A DNA stretch of 64,000 bases from Myxococcota bacterium (GTDB taxonomy: Bacteria; Myxococcota_A; UBA9160; SMWR01): assembly GCA_039030075.1 (NCBI GenBank), contig JBCCEW010000008.1, positions 62,001-126,000 of the forward strand, written 5' to 3'. Positions within the stretch are counted from its first letter, which is position 1, and each line of letters opens with the position of its first letter. Positions 12,782-19,336 of this stretch are shown here, in pieces. A model generated the notes under the pieces. It worked only from the letters and a program-made list of their open reading frames with translations. It ran no database searches and was not told where the DNA came from. The translations under genes were made by a program, and so were the position numbers.

Positions 12782-14017
12782 CTAGAAGCTGCGCAATGCC
12801 TCGGCCGGGAGCGTCTGGGCCGCCCGGATCGCGGGGACCACCCCGGCGACGATGCCGACCCCGATCAGCGCGACGGTGAACGCACCGGTCGTGATCGGGT
12901 CGAGCACCGGCGGGCTCTGGTAGGCCGTGCCTTCGGGTAGGAGCAGCGAGATGCCCTGCACGAGGGCGATGCCCGCGGCGGCCCCCGTCACCCCCGAGAC
13001 CGCCGAGACGGCGGTCGCCTCCGCGAGGAACTGGACGAAGATCTCGCGTGACGTGGCGCCGACGGCCTTGCGTACGCCGATCTCCTGGACGCGCTCGCCG
13101 ACGACGACGAGCATGATGTTCATCACGCCGATCGCGCCCACGAAGAGGGTCACGAGGCCAGCCCCCAGCATGAAGATGCGGATCCCGAGGAACATTCCCT
13201 CGATCATCTGCAGCGGCTCCTGGATGTTGAACGCCCACATCGCCGTTTCGATCGAGGGGTCGTAGCCCTCGCGGAGGGCGACGATCTCGCGCACGCGCCG
13301 GATCGCTTCCCAGCTCGCCTCCTTCGTGACGGGCGCGAGGATCAGCTGCTGCACCTCGTCGTTCCGGGCGATCCAGCGCTGGGCGGTCGTGTAGGGGATC
13401 ACCACCTTGAGGTCGTCCCGATCGTTGCTGTTCATCAGCTGCTCGCCCTTCGCGACGAGCGTGCCGATCACGCGGTAGCGCAGGCCGTCGACGAGGATCG
13501 TCCCGCCGATGGGATCGCGTCGACCGAAGAGGCGCTCGCTCGCCTCGGCGCCGAGGACCGCCACGCGCGCGCCGCGCGCCACGTCGAGGGGCGAGAGGTA
13601 GCGACCGCGTTCCATCTCGAAGTTCCGGATGATGTCGGAGCCCGCGTCGAGGCCGGACACCCGGAGCAGCTTCGAGCGCCGTCCCTGGCGCACCGGCAGC
13701 GCCCAGCGGCCGATCTCGGGCGACGCTTCCTCGACCGAGACGAGTTGCTCGGCGCGGTCGGCGTCCTCGGCCTCCAGCTCGACGACCCGGGCGCCGCGGT
13801 CTCCCACCCGGTCCTTCAGGATGGACCCCGGACCCATGAAGACGATGCGCGGACCGAGCTCCTCGAATTCGGCGACGAAGTGGCGCGAGAAGCCCTCCAG
13901 GTTCGAAGACAGGAAGGTCAGCATGAAGGCGCCCCAAGCGATGCCGAGGGAGGTGAGCCCGAAGCGGACCCGGTGCGCCACGATGCTGCGCCAGGTGTCG
14001 ATGACGAGTTCACGCAT
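12782..14017 (-). CDS. ABC transporter permease, MacB/FtsX type (second of two)
   Basis: 411 residues. Topology is one N-terminal helix (about 20-40), a large periplasmic MacB-type core domain (ELGPRIVFMGPGS through the 280s) and three C-terminal helices of the FtsX domain, including GVMNIMLVVVGERVQEIGVRKAVGA, the cytoplasmic coupling loop for the ATPase. Proteins of this class work by mechanotransmission to expel substrates from the periplasm rather than by moving them across the inner membrane. Last gene of the operon, 4 bases after its paralogue. Confidence 0.93.
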   Translation of the reverse strand: MRELVIDTWRSIVAHRVRFGLTSLGIAWGAFMLTFLSSNLEGFSRHFVAEFEELGPRIVFMGPGSILKDRVGDRGARVVELEAEDADRAEQLVSVEEASPEIGRWALPVRQGRRSKLLRVSGLDAGSDIIRNFEMERGRYLSPLDVARGARVAVLGAEASERLFGRRDPIGGTILVDGLRYRVIGTLVAKGEQLMNSNDRDDLKVVIPYTTAQRWIARNDEVQQLILAPVTKEASWEAIRRVREIVALREGYDPSIETAMWAFNIQEPLQMIEGMFLGIRIFMLGAGLVTLFVGAIGVMNIMLVVVGERVQEIGVRKAVGATSREIFVQFLAEATAVSAVSGVTGAAAGIALVQGISLLLPEGTAYQSPPVLDPITTGAFTVALIGVGIVAGVVPAIRAAQTLPAEALRSF

Positions 14018-14021
14018 GCCG

Positions 14022-15260
14022 CTACTCCGCCCGCAGGGTCAGGGCCGGGTCGATCTGCGCGGCCCGCCAGGCCGGTACGACCCCGGCGATGAGTCCGACC
14101 CCTCCCATCACGCCCAGGGCCATGGCGATCACCCGCCACGACAAGACCGGCACGGGGACCACGTCGGGGAGCGTGAGGGACGCCAGGAACAGGCAGCCGC
14201 CCGCGCCGATGGCAGCGCCGGTGAGCCCGCCGAGGCTCACGATCGTGAACGTCTCCAGGAAGAACTGGGCGATGATCTCACGCCGGGTCGCGCCGACGGC
14301 GAGCCGCAGGCCGATCTCACGGCGACGTTCGCGCACGGCGTCGAGCATCATGTTCAGGACGCCGATCCCGCCGATGATCAGCGTGGTGGCGGCGAGCACG
14401 AAGAGCATTCCCGACTGCCGATCCAGGGGCAGCGTCCGCAGCAGGGTCACCGGGCTCCAGACCATGATGGCCTCCCGGTCGGTCGGGCTCACGCCGAGGC
14501 GATCGGCGAGCAGCCGGCGGATCTCGCGCTCGGTTTCGTCGGCGAGGTGCCGACCGGGCATCCGGTAGAGCAGATGCTGGACGACGTTGTCGGTGGTCCA
14601 GTCGTCGGGCCAGCTCGCGAAGTGGGTGGAGAGCGGGATCCAGGCCTGTTCGTCGATCTCGTCGCCGTCGCGGCCGAACTGGGTACCGATTGGTTCGAGG
14701 AAACCGATCACTTCGAACGCGCGTCCGCCAATCCGGATCCGGCTCCCGATCTCGCCACCGGGGCCGAGGATGCGCTCGCGCGCTGTCTGTCCGAGCACGA
14801 CGACGCGTCGGCGGTGGTCGAGGTCGGTCGGTTGGATCTGACGCCCGGCCGCGACCACGACGTTGCGAATCTCGATGCCCACCGGTTCCACGCCGCGCAC
14901 TTCCATGTTGAGCGCGCGCTGTCCCGCAGCCACGGGGAGGTAGTGGCGCCGCTCGGCGCTGACGCGCTCGGCGATGCGGGCACGCCGGCGCACGGCGAGC
15001 ACATCCTCCCAGCTGAACCAGAGCTGGCGTCGATCGACGGCCGGCGTGAAGTCCTCTCCGATCCGGCCGGCCCAGGCCTGGCCCAGGTTCTTGCCGGTCT
15101 TGTCGAAGTTCCGGTCGAGCATCACCCGCAGCCCTTCGCCCCAACCGACGAGGAAGATCACCGCGGCGGTTCCCCAGACGAGCCCGAAGAGGGTGAGGAG
15201 CGAGCGCAGCTTGTGCGCCCAGACGAGGCGGAGCGCCTGTGCGGCGGCTTCGCGGATCAC
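14022..15260 (-). CDS. ABC transporter permease, MacB/FtsX type (first of two)
   Basis: 412 residues with the same layout as the following gene: N-terminal helix (LRSLLTLFGLVWGTAAVIFLVG), periplasmic core, then three helices with GVLNMMLDAVRERRREIGLRLAVGAT as coupling loop. The two permeases are paralogues encoded separately, so the exporter is probably a heterodimer, unlike the MacB homodimer in which ATPase and permease are one chain. Start overlaps the ATPase stop by 4 bases. Confidence 0.93.
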   Translation of the reverse strand: MIREAAAQALRLVWAHKLRSLLTLFGLVWGTAAVIFLVGWGEGLRVMLDRNFDKTGKNLGQAWAGRIGEDFTPAVDRRQLWFSWEDVLAVRRRARIAERVSAERRHYLPVAAGQRALNMEVRGVEPVGIEIRNVVVAAGRQIQPTDLDHRRRVVVLGQTARERILGPGGEIGSRIRIGGRAFEVIGFLEPIGTQFGRDGDEIDEQAWIPLSTHFASWPDDWTTDNVVQHLLYRMPGRHLADETEREIRRLLADRLGVSPTDREAIMVWSPVTLLRTLPLDRQSGMLFVLAATTLIIGGIGVLNMMLDAVRERRREIGLRLAVGATRREIIAQFFLETFTIVSLGGLTGAAIGAGGCLFLASLTLPDVVPVPVLSWRVIAMALGVMGGVGLIAGVVPAWRAAQIDPALTLRAE

Positions 15261-15946
15261 GACCGACGCTCGTCGTCGTCGACCCGGCCGTCGCGGATCG
15301 TCAGGCAGCGGGGGGCCCGCGCGCCGATCTCGGGATCGTGGGTGACGATCACCAGGGTGTTCCCCGCCGCGTGCACCGCGTCGAAGAGCTCGAGCACCTC
15401 CTGACCCGTCCGGGTATCGAGGTTCCCCGTCGGCTCGTCGGCCAGCACCAGCGATGGACGGTTCACGAGCGCGCGCGCCACGGCGACCCGTTGGCGTTCG
15501 CCTCCCGAGATCTCCGCCGGCAGGTGCTCCGCACGTTGCGCCAGGCCCACTCTTTCGAGCGCCTCCTGCGCGCGCTCGCGGCGTTCGCGCCGTGGAGTCC
15601 CCGCGTAGGAGAGGGGAAGCTCCACGTTCTCCACCACCGAAAGGCGGGGCAGAAGGTTGAAGCTCTGGAATACGAAGCCGATCTGGCGGCCGCGCAGACG
15701 GGCGACCGCGTCGGCTTCCATCGCGTCCACCGGCGCGCCGTCGAGTCGGTAGTGGCCTTCGGTCGGACGGGACAGGCAGCCGAGCACCTCGAGCAGCGTC
15801 GTCTTCCCTGAACCCGAGGGCCCCATCACGGTCACGTACTCACCGTGGTCGACGCGCAGGTCGATCCCGCGGAGCGCGTGCACGTCGAGACGGCCGGTGC
15901 GGTAGTGCTTGTGCACTCCGGCGAGCGTGATGACCGGCTCGCTCAC
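15257..15946 (-). CDS. ABC transporter ATP-binding protein (MacB/LolD type)
   Basis: 229 residues, a single nucleotide-binding domain. Walker [10 protein letters not shown] is at 42-50, the Q-loop at Q94, the signature [15 protein letters not shown] around 146-160, Walker B SLVLADEP at 165-172, and the switch histidine is H203. [22 protein letters not shown] is typical of the MacB/LolD subgroup. Overlaps both neighbours by 4 bases, so adaptor, ATPase and permeases are one translational unit. Confidence 0.96.
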
Positions 15947-17001
15947 TGGAGCCGCACCGACTCGCCCGCTTCGAGGCCGGACAAGATCTGAACCTTCGCG
16001 CCGTCGATCAAGCCGATCTCGATGGCACGCTGCTCGGCGCTGCCGTCGCCGTTGCCCACTTCGACGTAGATCTCCTCGCCTCGGTAGCGGAGCGCCGTCT
16101 CGGGCACGAACACCGCGTCTCGCACGACCTCGGTGACGATCTCGGCATCGCCCGACATCCGGGGCCGCAAGAGGGACGCGTCGGCGTCGGTGACTTCGAT
16201 CTTCACCTCGAAGTAGGTCACGTTCTGGACGCGCTGGCCGAGGGGGGCGATCTCACGTACGACGCCTTCGAAGACCCGATCAGCGAAGGCCTCGGTCTGG
16301 ATGCGCGCGGTCTGGCCGATCTCGACGCGCGCCACCTCGTTCTCGTCGACGAGTCCCTCGAGGTGCAGGCGTTCGTTGCCGGCCAGGGTCAGCAGCAGCG
16401 TGCCTCCGTTCACCGACGTGACGGGCGACACAGCGTCCCCGGCCTCGATATGGACCTCGAGCACGCGGCCCGCCAGGGGCGAGCGCACGTCGGCGTAGCC
16501 GAGCTGGGTGGACAGTGTGTCGAGGGCTGCGCGCGCCCGAGCGCGGGCGGCTTTGGCGCGCTCGAATCGGGCCTCGGCGTCGTCGCGCTTCTGGTCCGAA
16601 GAGGCCCCGCTCTTGTTCATCTCGAGCATGCGGTCGACGGCGATCTTCGCGAAGCGACGCTCGACTTCGGCCTCCCGCAGCGCGGCCCGCGCCTCGCGTA
16701 CCCGGGATTCGAGCAGCTCGCGTTCGATCTCGACGAGCACCGTGCCGGGCTCGATGCGGTCGCCCTCCTGGCTGGCGATGCGTTGCACGATGCCGGCGAT
16801 GCGCGGACGGATCTCGACCTCGACCCGCGGCTCGATCGTGCCGGTGGCGATCACCAGCCGCTCGAGGGTGCCGCGCTCGACCTCGGCCTGGGGGACGTTC
16901 TCGGGCGCCTCGCCACCGCAGCCGACGATCGCCAGCCACAGGCATGCGCAGAGGGTGCTGGGCCAGCGCGCGTGGTTTCGACGCGTTCGTTCGATTCGCA
17001 T
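15943..17001 (-). CDS. MacA-like periplasmic adaptor lipoprotein (HlyD/RND adaptor family)
   Basis: 352 residues. The signal segment ends WLAIVGC, a good lipobox with the lipidated cysteine at residue 28. After it come a lipoyl-type half motif (VEIRPRIAGIVQRIASQEGD), a long alpha-helical hairpin (about 95-165), the second lipoyl half (ADVRSPLAGRVLEVHIEAGD), and beta-barrel and membrane-proximal parts. It should link the inner-membrane ABC parts to an outer-membrane channel; no TolC gene is in the window. Heads the exporter operon. A Shine-Dalgarno AGGAGC lies 6-7 bases before the ATG. Confidence 0.92.
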   Translation of the reverse strand: MRIERTRRNHARWPSTLCACLWLAIVGCGGEAPENVPQAEVERGTLERLVIATGTIEPRVEVEIRPRIAGIVQRIASQEGDRIEPGTVLVEIERELLESRVREARAALREAEVERRFAKIAVDRMLEMNKSGASSDQKRDDAEARFERAKAARARARAALDTLSTQLGYADVRSPLAGRVLEVHIEAGDAVSPVTSVNGGTLLLTLAGNERLHLEGLVDENEVARVEIGQTARIQTEAFADRVFEGVVREIAPLGQRVQNVTYFEVKIEVTDADASLLRPRMSGDAEIVTEVVRDAVFVPETALRYRGEEIYVEVGNGDGSAEQRAIEIGLIDGAKVQILSGLEAGESVRLQ

Positions 17002-17062
17002 TGCTTTGCTCCTGGATCCAGGGAGAGACCGCTCTCGGCGGTCCGGGTCCGGAAGGCCTCTT

Positions 17063-17102
17063 CGAACGAAAACGGCCTTCCGAGTGGGACACCCGGAAGG
17101 CC
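17063..17102 (-). terminator. Intrinsic terminator after the 55-codon gene, upstream of the exporter operon
   Basis: On the minus strand GGCCTTCCG (17102-17094), an 11-base loop and CGGAAGGCC (17082-17074) form a perfect 9-bp stem followed at once by GTTTTCG. It begins 28 bases after the small gene's stop. A third copy of the arm, GGCCTTCCGG (17058-17049), follows downstream and could pair with the second arm instead, so readthrough into the exporter operon might be conditional. Confidence 0.65.
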
Positions 17103-17130
17103 GTGACGAGACTGATGGGATTCACGTCCT

Positions 17131-17298
17131 CTAGGGTGTTGGGTCTCCGCGCATGGCGCCCGCCGCACGCGCGCTGCCATTCGGCGGCAGCTGCGACGCG
17201 TTCTGCGGCTGCATCGCGATCCCGTCGAACCGGGTGATCGCGTGAGCAGCGAGGGGCGCGGGATGTCCGTGCGCCGCGCGGGAGCTGAACCACTTCAT
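17131..17298 (-). CDS. Small hypothetical protein, 55 residues, upstream of the exporter operon
   Basis: Not recognised. ATG at 17298, TAG at 17131-17133. It has complete gene architecture: a promoter-like TTGACG...TACGGT pair upstream, a strong Shine-Dalgarno GGAGG (17310-17306) 7 bases before the ATG, and an intrinsic terminator 28 bases after the stop. The peptide begins MKWFSSRAAHGHPAP, is rich in Ala, Pro, His, Gln and Asn, has no hydrophobic segment and no cysteine, and ends GDPTP. It points towards the MacAB-type exporter. It could be an exported peptide, a leader peptide that regulates the operon, or a small cytosolic protein; nothing in it identifies which. Confidence 0.55.
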   Translation of the reverse strand: MKWFSSRAAHGHPAPLAAHAITRFDGIAMQPQNASQLPPNGSARAAGAMRGDPTP

Positions 17299-17333
17299 CT
17301 GTGCTCCTCCCTCGCTGGGAACGTGATGACGCG

Positions 17334-17363
17334 ACCGTACCCTGGCCCGTCGCGCAGCGTCAA
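17334..17363 (-). promoter_or_regulatory. Sigma-70-like promoter of the 55-codon gene
   Basis: Minus-strand TTGACG (17363-17358, five of six consensus bases) and TACGGT (17339-17334, keeping the first two bases and last base of TATAAT) are 18 bases apart, placing the transcript start about 30 bases before the ATG. I see nothing else in the remaining bases up to the LLM-oxidoreductase stop at 17485. Confidence 0.5.
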
Positions 17364-17484
17364 GCAGAAGCTGGGAGGGGAGGGCAGAAGACCGGCCTGG
17401 GCGCCGGGGCGGATTCCGCCCGCGATCCCGCGCCCCGCGTCGCGACGGAGCCGTCTCGCTGCGGTGTTGGCCCGCCGCGTCGGC

Positions 17485-18420
17485 TCAGCCGAAGGCCGGA
17501 GCGACCTTCTCGGCGAACAGCCGCGCGGGCTCCCGGGTGTCCCGGCCGAAGAACTCGATCACGAAGAAGCTCACGCCGAGCTCCCGGTGGCGCTCGATGC
17601 GCTCGATGACGGCGTCGGGCGAGCCCCAGATGCCGTGCTCTTCGAGGGCACCTCCCATATGGCCGCCGTAGATCTTCTTCGCCTTGTCGAGGGCCGCCTG
17701 GGCGGCGGTGTCGTCTTCGGCGAGCACGACGACGCACTGCTGGGAGATCTCGATCGATGAGAAGTCGCGGCCCACCTCGTCGCAACGCCGCTTCAGGGCT
17801 TCGACCTTCTGCCCCAGCTCGGCCTGGAACACCGCCATGTTGTTCCAGATGTCGGCGTGACGGGCCGCGATGCCCATCAGGACCTTCTCGCCACCGCCTC
17901 CGATCAGGATCTCCGGCGGCGTCTCTGGCTTCGGCTCGCAGATCGCATCCTGCACCGAGAAGTGCTGTCCCGAGAAGCTGGCCTTCTCCTCGGTCCACAT
18001 GCGCTTCATGATCTCGGTCATCTCGTCGAGGGCCCGCAGACGCTCTCGCGTGCTCGGGAAGTCGCAGCCGGTCTGTTCGAACTCGGGCTGGAACCAACCC
18101 GCACCGAGGCCCGCGATCACGCGCCCGCCCGAGATGTGATCGAGCGTGGCGATCTGCTTCGCGAGGATCGCGGGGTTGCGGAAGAAGGGCGGCGTCACGA
18201 GCGTGCCGAGCTTCGCGCGTTCGGTGACCGCCGCGACCGACGAGAGCAGGGTCCACGCCTCGAGGATCGGCAGCTGGGGCAGGGGGACGCCGTAGACGTG
18301 ATCGCAGACCCAGAGCGAGTCGTAGCCCATGGCGTCGAGATCGATGGCGCAGCGCCGGGTTTCCTCCCAGGTGCGCTTGATCTGGGGAAGGGTGACGCCA
18401 AAACGAACGGGACGGTCCAT
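17485..18420 (-). CDS. LLM-class flavin/F420-dependent oxidoreductase
   Basis: 311 residues from the ATG at 18420 (GAGGAG Shine-Dalgarno 7 bases away). Luciferase-like TIM barrel: FGVTLPQIKRTWEE at strand 1, GYDSLWVCDHVYGVPLPQ, TLVTPPFFRNPAILAKQIATLDHISGGR split across strands 3-4, and GLGAGWFQPEFEQTGCDFPS, a pattern common in probable F420-dependent members. The cofactor (F420H2 or FMNH2) and substrate are not determined by sequence alone. It diverges from the trmH-like gene. Confidence 0.87.
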   Translation of the reverse strand: MDRPVRFGVTLPQIKRTWEETRRCAIDLDAMGYDSLWVCDHVYGVPLPQLPILEAWTLLSSVAAVTERAKLGTLVTPPFFRNPAILAKQIATLDHISGGRVIAGLGAGWFQPEFEQTGCDFPSTRERLRALDEMTEIMKRMWTEEKASFSGQHFSVQDAICEPKPETPPEILIGGGGEKVLMGIAARHADIWNNMAVFQAELGQKVEALKRRCDEVGRDFSSIEISQQCVVVLAEDDTAAQAALDKAKKIYGGHMGGALEEHGIWGSPDAVIERIERHRELGVSFFVIEFFGRDTREPARLFAEKVAPAFG

Positions 18421-18508
18421 GGGGGGCTCCTCGAGGGCGCGTGCGCGCGCCCGGCATTCTACGCGACGCCGCGCTCCGGTGGCACCGTGCTGGGATACCC
18501 TTCGCCGC

Positions 18509-19336
18509 GTGCATCTCGAGGCGATCTCCACGCTCGACGATCCGCGCGTCGCGGCCTACCGCAACGTGCGCGACGCCGACCTGCGGGCCGGGCAGGGCGG
18601 CTTCCTCGCCGAGGGGCGCCTGAACGTCAAGCGGCTGATCCAGGCGCCTCGCTTTCGCGCGCGCTCGGTGTTCGCGACCCGCGCGGCGGTGGAAGCGCTC
18701 ACCCCGACGCTCGCCGCGCTCGACGAGGAGACGCCCATCTACTGTGCCGAGGCCGCGCTGTTGAAGCGCGTGGTCGGCTACAACCTGCACCGCGGTTGCC
18801 TGGCCGAGGGTGATCGCGGCGTGTGCTCGTCCCCGGACGCGCTGTTGTCGGGTCTGTCGACCGAGCGGCCGGTGACGGTGCTGGTGCTCGAGGACCTTAC
18901 CAACCCCGACAACGTGGGCGGGGTGTTCCGCAACGCCCTCGCTTTCGGGGTGGATGCCGTCCTGTTGACCCAGCGCTGCGCGGATCCGCTTTACCGCAAG
19001 GCGATCCGCGTCTCGATGGGCGCGTCCTTCGCGATCGATTTCACGCGCGGCGTCGACGCAGCCGCGCTCCACGCCGCGCTCGAGACGGCCGGCTTCGAGA
19101 GCGTCGCGCTCGCGACCGGCCCGGATGCGCGGCCGGTGTCGCGCTGGCTTGGCCTGCCGTCCCGGCTCGCCCTGTGGTGCGGGAGCGAAGGCGAGGGGCT
19201 GTCTTCCGCAGCGCTCGCTTTAGCGCGGGAGCGGATCGAGATCCCGATGGTCGACCGCATCGACTCGCTCAACGTGGCGACGGCCAGCGGCATCGCGCTG
19301 CACCAGGTGCGGACCCTGCGCGAGGCCAGCGCGTGA
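18509..19336 (+). CDS. TrmH/SpoU family RNA 2'-O-methyltransferase
   Basis: 275 residues from a GTG 7 bases after a TACCCT hexamer. The N-terminal ~100 residues are a substrate-binding domain (FLAEGRLNVKRLI). The SPOUT trefoil-knot domain carries motif 1 (NPDNVGGVFRNALAFG), motif 2 (LWCGSEGEGL) and motif 3 (IPMVDRIDSLNVATASGIAL), which bind S-adenosylmethionine. It should methylate a ribose in tRNA or 23S rRNA; the exact nucleotide is unknown. Its TGA overlaps the next gene's GTG. Confidence 0.93.
   Translation: MHLEAISTLDDPRVAAYRNVRDADLRAGQGGFLAEGRLNVKRLIQAPRFRARSVFATRAAVEALTPTLAALDEETPIYCAEAALLKRVVGYNLHRGCLAEGDRGVCSSPDALLSGLSTERPVTVLVLEDLTNPDNVGGVFRNALAFGVDAVLLTQRCADPLYRKAIRVSMGASFAIDFTRGVDAAALHAALETAGFESVALATGPDARPVSRWLGLPSRLALWCGSEGEGLSSAALALARERIEIPMVDRIDSLNVATASGIALHQVRTLREASA

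Follow-up and report, generated by a model that had tools for sequence, protein, structure and literature searches.

A putative leader-peptide transcription attenuator upstream of a MacAB-type exporter operon in a Myxococcota bacterium and its counterparts before other efflux and acetyltransferase genes

The stretch of DNA analysed here (64,000 nt of Myxococcota bacterium contig JBCCEW010000008.1, positions 62,001 to 126,000; hereafter the window) carries a 55-codon gene that appears to be a leader-peptide transcription attenuator of a MacAB-type exporter operon, i.e., an element through which the ribosome translating the leader would control transcription into the exporter genes. Based on the sequence and on modelled folds, we put the probability of this reading at roughly 0.83. 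Sequence and folding establish the parts of the element, their order, the two mutually exclusive hairpins and the conservation of this arrangement. The initial annotation had listed a leader peptide controlling readthrough into the exporter as one of several options, and this option is strongly supported by the conserved layout and by an antiterminator in which the end of the leader, stop codon included, takes part. That annotation contained neither the antiterminator with its position across the stop nor the family of loci that share it; both are added by this analysis.

All parts of the element are located on the minus strand. The promoter (17334..17363) consists of TTGACG at 17363-17358, an 18-nt spacer and TACGGT at 17339-17334, and was identified from its sequence and from equivalents in homologous loci. 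GGAGG precedes the leader ORF (17131..17298), which starts with an ATG at 17298 and, after 55 codons, ends with a TAG at 17133-17131. The ORF is followed by an intrinsic terminator (17064..17104), which comprises a stem at 17104-17072 and the T-rich tail TTTCGTTC, and whose sequence is conserved in the order. When the coordinates were rechecked in the sequence, promoter, GGAGG, frame and terminator were found in the order and on the strand given in the initial annotation. The terminator stem had been described as 9 bp but actually contains 15 pairs (one G-U) closed by a 3-base loop (-27.7 kcal/mol). No other stem that exceeds 6 pairs and has a T-rich tail was found in 19 kb. Downstream, at a distance of 65 nt from the terminator, the gene for a MacA-like periplasmic adaptor, presumed to be the first regulated gene (15943..17001, with its start at 17001; HlyD/RND_mfp profiles), is followed on the same strand by genes for a MacB-type ABC ATPase (15257..15946; profile search) and two MacB-type permeases (14022..15260 and 12782..14017; both with MacB_PCD and FtsX profiles), which agrees with the exporter type first proposed. 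Upstream of the leader, a gene for an F420-dependent LLM-class oxidoreductase (TIGR03560) is found at 17485-18531 on the minus strand; since the genes upstream of the leader vary among relatives, it was placed outside the attenuator unit.

When the RNA was folded with the terminator 3' arm not yet made, starting shortly ahead of the stop codon and finishing where the 5' arm ends, it yielded an antiterminator with an MFE of -19.9 kcal/mol (z -2.87) in the window. The 5' strand of this antiterminator, ACACCC (17134..17139, minus strand), represents the last two leader codons (ACA CCC) and abuts the TAG. In the MFE fold, it pairs with GGGTGT at 17094-17089 (17089..17094, minus strand), which lies within the terminator 5' arm and is common to both exclusive hairpins. 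The same fold contains a second helix between GAGG (17128..17131) and CCTT (17100-17097), as well as an inner hairpin (17102..17126) between CGTGA at 17126-17122 and TCACG at 17106-17102, which overlaps the base of the terminator; both are on the minus strand.

An antiterminator fold was predicted in all 24 loci that share the element, with 10-19 pairs per locus that join the side of the stop codon to that of the terminator and with z values that were negative throughout (mean -3.3; weakest -1.4, in L114). The general fold consists of a GCACCC:GGGUGC helix, for which the window has the variant ACACCC:GGGUGU, a small internal loop in which the U-A from the stop codon is usually found, another short helix of the GGAAG:CUUCC type (absent in L043) and an inner helix. 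The strand that includes the stop codon is, in many loci, similar to the terminator 3' arm with UA inserted. The pairing survives sequence change; an A-U pair replaces G-C in the window, and CCCCGA:UCGGGG, GCCCUAGA:UCUGGGGC and GGAGCUUCC:GGAAGCUCC are found in L082, L054 and L061, respectively. Moreover, complementarity between the stop region and the terminator arm was greater than at 17 control gene ends, of which at least two are themselves leaders (p 5e-4). Since the strand hardly varies, covariation between columns is weak; 76.9% of cells are paired, against 26-48% after sliding, but shuffles also reach 76.9%. RNAalifold found nothing on a MAFFT alignment in which the divergent rows misalign. 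An additional competitor hairpin further upstream, comparable to the anti-antiterminator of bmrB, was rejected, as the stop-codon strand showed no excess pairing with the upstream leader (mean z +0.36).

For the direction of switching, the kinetics and the inducer of this attenuator, we infer the following. RNA polymerase would start just downstream of 17334 and make the leader RNA, followed by a ribosome that translates the 55 codons. A ribosome that reaches the stop codon in time would cover ACACCC-UAG and leave the terminator 5' arm to pair only with its own 3' arm; the terminator would then form, transcription would end near 17064 and the exporter would be off. Without a ribosome, or with one that is slowed or has stalled within the leader, ACACCC(UA)GAGG could pair with CCUU..GGGUGU once this is made, and the resulting antiterminator would block the terminator and allow the polymerase to continue into macA-macB, switching the exporter on. 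A point against this scheme is that the terminator (-27.7 kcal/mol) has the greater stability of the two hairpins at equilibrium (antiterminator, -19.9 kcal/mol). Equilibrium folding therefore favours the off state, and kinetics, i.e., the order of synthesis, must matter.

The element was also found outside the window genome, which carries a single copy. Matches from a DNA search of 60 relatives cover the final leader codons and the terminator, not the whole gene, and in these relatives the element precedes an ABC exporter related to the cyanophycin-associated type and then a DUF1854 protein, not MacAB; an orthologue of this ABC exporter was not found in the window's genome, which is 95% complete. 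Among 20 genes for this exporter, which were collected from the class and the phylum by a protein search with the N-terminal domain and without use of the RNA, 19 have a leader ORF and an alternative hairpin upstream. L082, which comes from another class and has a wholly different sequence, still shows both. The one locus with no recognisable leader ORF is L055 (G067:C379), where the promoter is close to the terminator and GCACCTC:GGGGTGC complementarity is still present. Four further leaders, identified with a covariance model, are found in other gene settings, namely before an HlyD-type adaptor (L114), before an adaptor and an AcrB-type pump (L116) and before GNAT acetyltransferases (L113 and L117). 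The layout is common to the 24 loci, and the downstream genes encode exporters or GNAT acetyltransferases. Weaker model matches (L115, L118-L124, L130-L134) were rejected as they resembled ordinary terminators or unrelated sequence, and outside the class the model matched ordinary terminators only.

Conservation of the leader together with MacAB was considered and rejected; MacA orthologues of relatives (50-63% identical) do not have the element, and the window has the only MacAB with the element among the loci compared. The window genome is therefore the only one known to link the element to MacAB, presumably as a result of a transfer or rearrangement that involved the leader. Rfam 15 covariance models gave no match to 16900-17600 up to E = 1, and a literature search, which was partial and does not prove absence, turned up no account of leaders of this kind in Myxococcota or upstream of macAB.

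Promoter and terminator both recur beyond chance. The -10 hexamer of the window promoter is poor (3/6 consensus matches), and a consensus promoter scan missed this promoter. Of the 24 homologous loci, however, 16 have a TTG..-N16-19-.A...T pair no more than 90 nt before the leader start, vs 1% of random windows. Among 80 genomes of the order, 11 contained a strict terminator pattern, with 12 occurrences in total and none in the reversed control, and each of these 12 occurrences represents the leader-terminator element. A scan of ~85,000 species genomes with a strict pattern gave five matches only, on contigs named as 'Myxococcota' or 'Deltaproteobacteria' MAGs and, in one case, just as 'bacterium'. 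The idea that the pattern is a general-purpose terminator sequence of these genomes was rejected, as there are no more than 1-2 copies per genome and every one of them is the element.

A T-rich tail is present in most loci and absent in four (L058, L060, L061 and L082). When these four were folded at full length, the bases just 3' of the leader stop paired with the ribosome site or the start region of the exporter; the same bases otherwise lie within the antiterminator. Since the bases that hide the exporter ribosome site also sit in the antiterminator, the antiterminator can be read as the on state. The output of these four loci is predicted to be translational, with an off fold that masks the ribosome site or the start region.

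The leaders range from 35 to 88 codons, and frame and stop position are kept across the 24 loci, while the peptide sequence is not; dN/dS values of 0.8, 1.8 and 0.47 in three close pairs indicate no purifying selection on it. Relatives thus keep both the stem-loops and the frame, rather than the stem-loops alone as the initial annotation had considered, and only the amino-acid sequence drifts. A peptide ending of AP or TP before the stop is shared because of the RNA pairing. Two candidates were rejected on these grounds: a conserved small protein, as only the end is shared and the RNA pairing accounts for that end, and a C-terminal PAP-stop arrest motif, as it is lost in L049, L054 and L061, whose pairing strand is not within the final codons. 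None of the 24 leaders, that of the window included, has a run of one regulatory codon. Since the peptide drifts but the frame, the position of the stop and the RNA pairing do not, the leader probably measures translation speed over its whole length and does not rely on one arrest sequence. Such whole-length sensing would suit induction by ribosome-targeting inhibitors, and the likeliest inducers would be ribosome inhibitors or other causes of slowed translation, which are favoured over one specific amino acid. The codons of the window leader, the only leader for which this comparison applies, are less preferred than ~97% of 55-codon stretches in neighbouring genes and may slow the ribosome.

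It is possible, if rather unlikely, that the same attenuator senses one specific condition, such as a shortage of charged tRNA (perhaps for cysteine) or a ligand under which one particular nascent peptide stalls. Cys codons in 17 of the 24 leaders, often in a G-[GAS]-x-C-like context, would fit such a sensor, as would the Thr-rich leaders before asd in L125 and L126, which suggest that amino-acid attenuators exist in the class. However, the window leader has no Cys, runs of a single codon are lacking, the peptide sequence drifts (dN/dS 0.5-1.8) and the targets are pumps and acetyltransferases, not biosynthesis genes. The Cys residues of the other leaders are mostly near the middle (GGVC, GGAC, GAC, GSC; e.g., L044, L045, L051 and L058) and could be due to chance or represent a sensing residue. 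L125 (G003:C61:29582-29645, minus) and L126 (G062:C184:25380-25451, minus) are short leaders (e.g., MYFAPTTPTATTTSIPGVTTKERL followed by a stop) with a terminator behind them, directly upstream of aspartate-semialdehyde dehydrogenase, and are probable classical threonine attenuators. At L128 (G065:C407:1854-1924, minus), a hairpin that resembles a terminator lies a short distance before a panB-like gene and is possibly part of another attenuator.

The complete expression signals, together with GC by codon position and codon usage that are best in the annotated frame, could also indicate an ordinary small-protein gene with its own terminator, next to an exporter that is transcribed from another promoter and does not depend on readthrough. 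This is improbable; the peptide is unconserved even among close relatives, the gap between terminator and exporter is merely ~20-110 nt across loci, and in 24 of 24 loci the alternative pairing links the stop codon to the terminator 5' arm. Still less probable is a stand-alone small RNA, as which the initial annotation had also considered the transcript. The promoter and a conserved 3' sequence with a T-rich tail, which would be its 3' end, are sRNA-like, but an efflux or acetyltransferase gene lies just downstream on the same strand in every clear case, the reading frame ends at the pairing strand in 24 of 24 loci, four loci have no T-run and Rfam gave no match; the attenuated leader could act additionally as an sRNA. 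The exported peptide proposed at first, a secreted or signalling product of a gene that adjoins its pump, is the least credible, given sequences that are unrelated between loci and without a match to Pfam/NCBIfam profiles, an AP or TP end that is explained by RNA pairing and lost in three loci, and two targets that are acetyltransferases and not exporters.

The attenuator reading suggests that uncultured Myxococcota-like bacteria switch exporter and acetyltransferase genes on when ribosomes slow. Whether it extends to a class-wide portable attenuator, with its own stop codon in the antiterminator, a near-free peptide of 35-88 codons that reads translation speed, interchangeable transcriptional and translational outputs and attachment to unrelated efflux and acetyltransferase genes, so as to form a ribosome-stress regulon without a protein regulator, we regard as an even bet. 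If true, this conserved modular version would show that one RNA switch is reused for unrelated pumps in uncultured bacteria, would account for why these leaders can do without a conserved peptide and would provide a sequence signature for ribosome-stress-responsive genes, i.e., candidate resistance genes, in metagenomes.

To our knowledge, leader-peptide control of efflux pumps has been described for only a few systems. By analogy, the window element seems closest to bmrB-bmrCD in purpose and to PA5471.1-armZ in logic. In Bacillus subtilis, a small ORF and alternative stem-loops are found upstream of the multidrug ABC exporter BmrCD; translation of the bmrB leader is required, and lincomycin and other 50S drugs induce (PMC4191407). 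Both systems have a small ORF before an ABC exporter and a strand common to terminator and antiterminator, but the bmrB terminator lies inside the ORF and an anti-antiterminator has been described, whereas the window element has its terminator after the ORF, no third hairpin was found, its antiterminator includes the stop codon and similar leaders precede genes that are unrelated to one another. In Pseudomonas aeruginosa, also a Gram-negative organism, complete translation of the PA5471.1 leader leads to termination, while impaired translation leads to armZ (mexXY) expression and more efflux, and deletion of the leader raises expression (PMC13041342). The logic inferred for the window element is the same; however, PA5471.1-armZ controls an anti-repressor and not the pump directly, the third and fourth codons matter there (PMC13041342), and no shared sequence is known. 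The predicted translational output of L058, L060, L061 and L082 resembles the ermC and cat-86 translational attenuators (per PMC4191407), which differ in having a conserved arrest peptide; in the present family, the switching strand overlaps the leader stop and most members terminate transcription. A leader ORF, a terminator, an alternative hairpin and ribosome-polymerase coupling are shared with the classical trp and thr attenuators, from which the family differs in its lack of regulatory-codon runs, its leaders of 35-88 codons and its efflux and acetyltransferase targets. Compared to bmrB-bmrCD and PA5471.1-armZ, the window element and its counterparts differ in the absence of a third hairpin, the embedded stop codon, the near-free peptide and the reuse of the element before unrelated genes.
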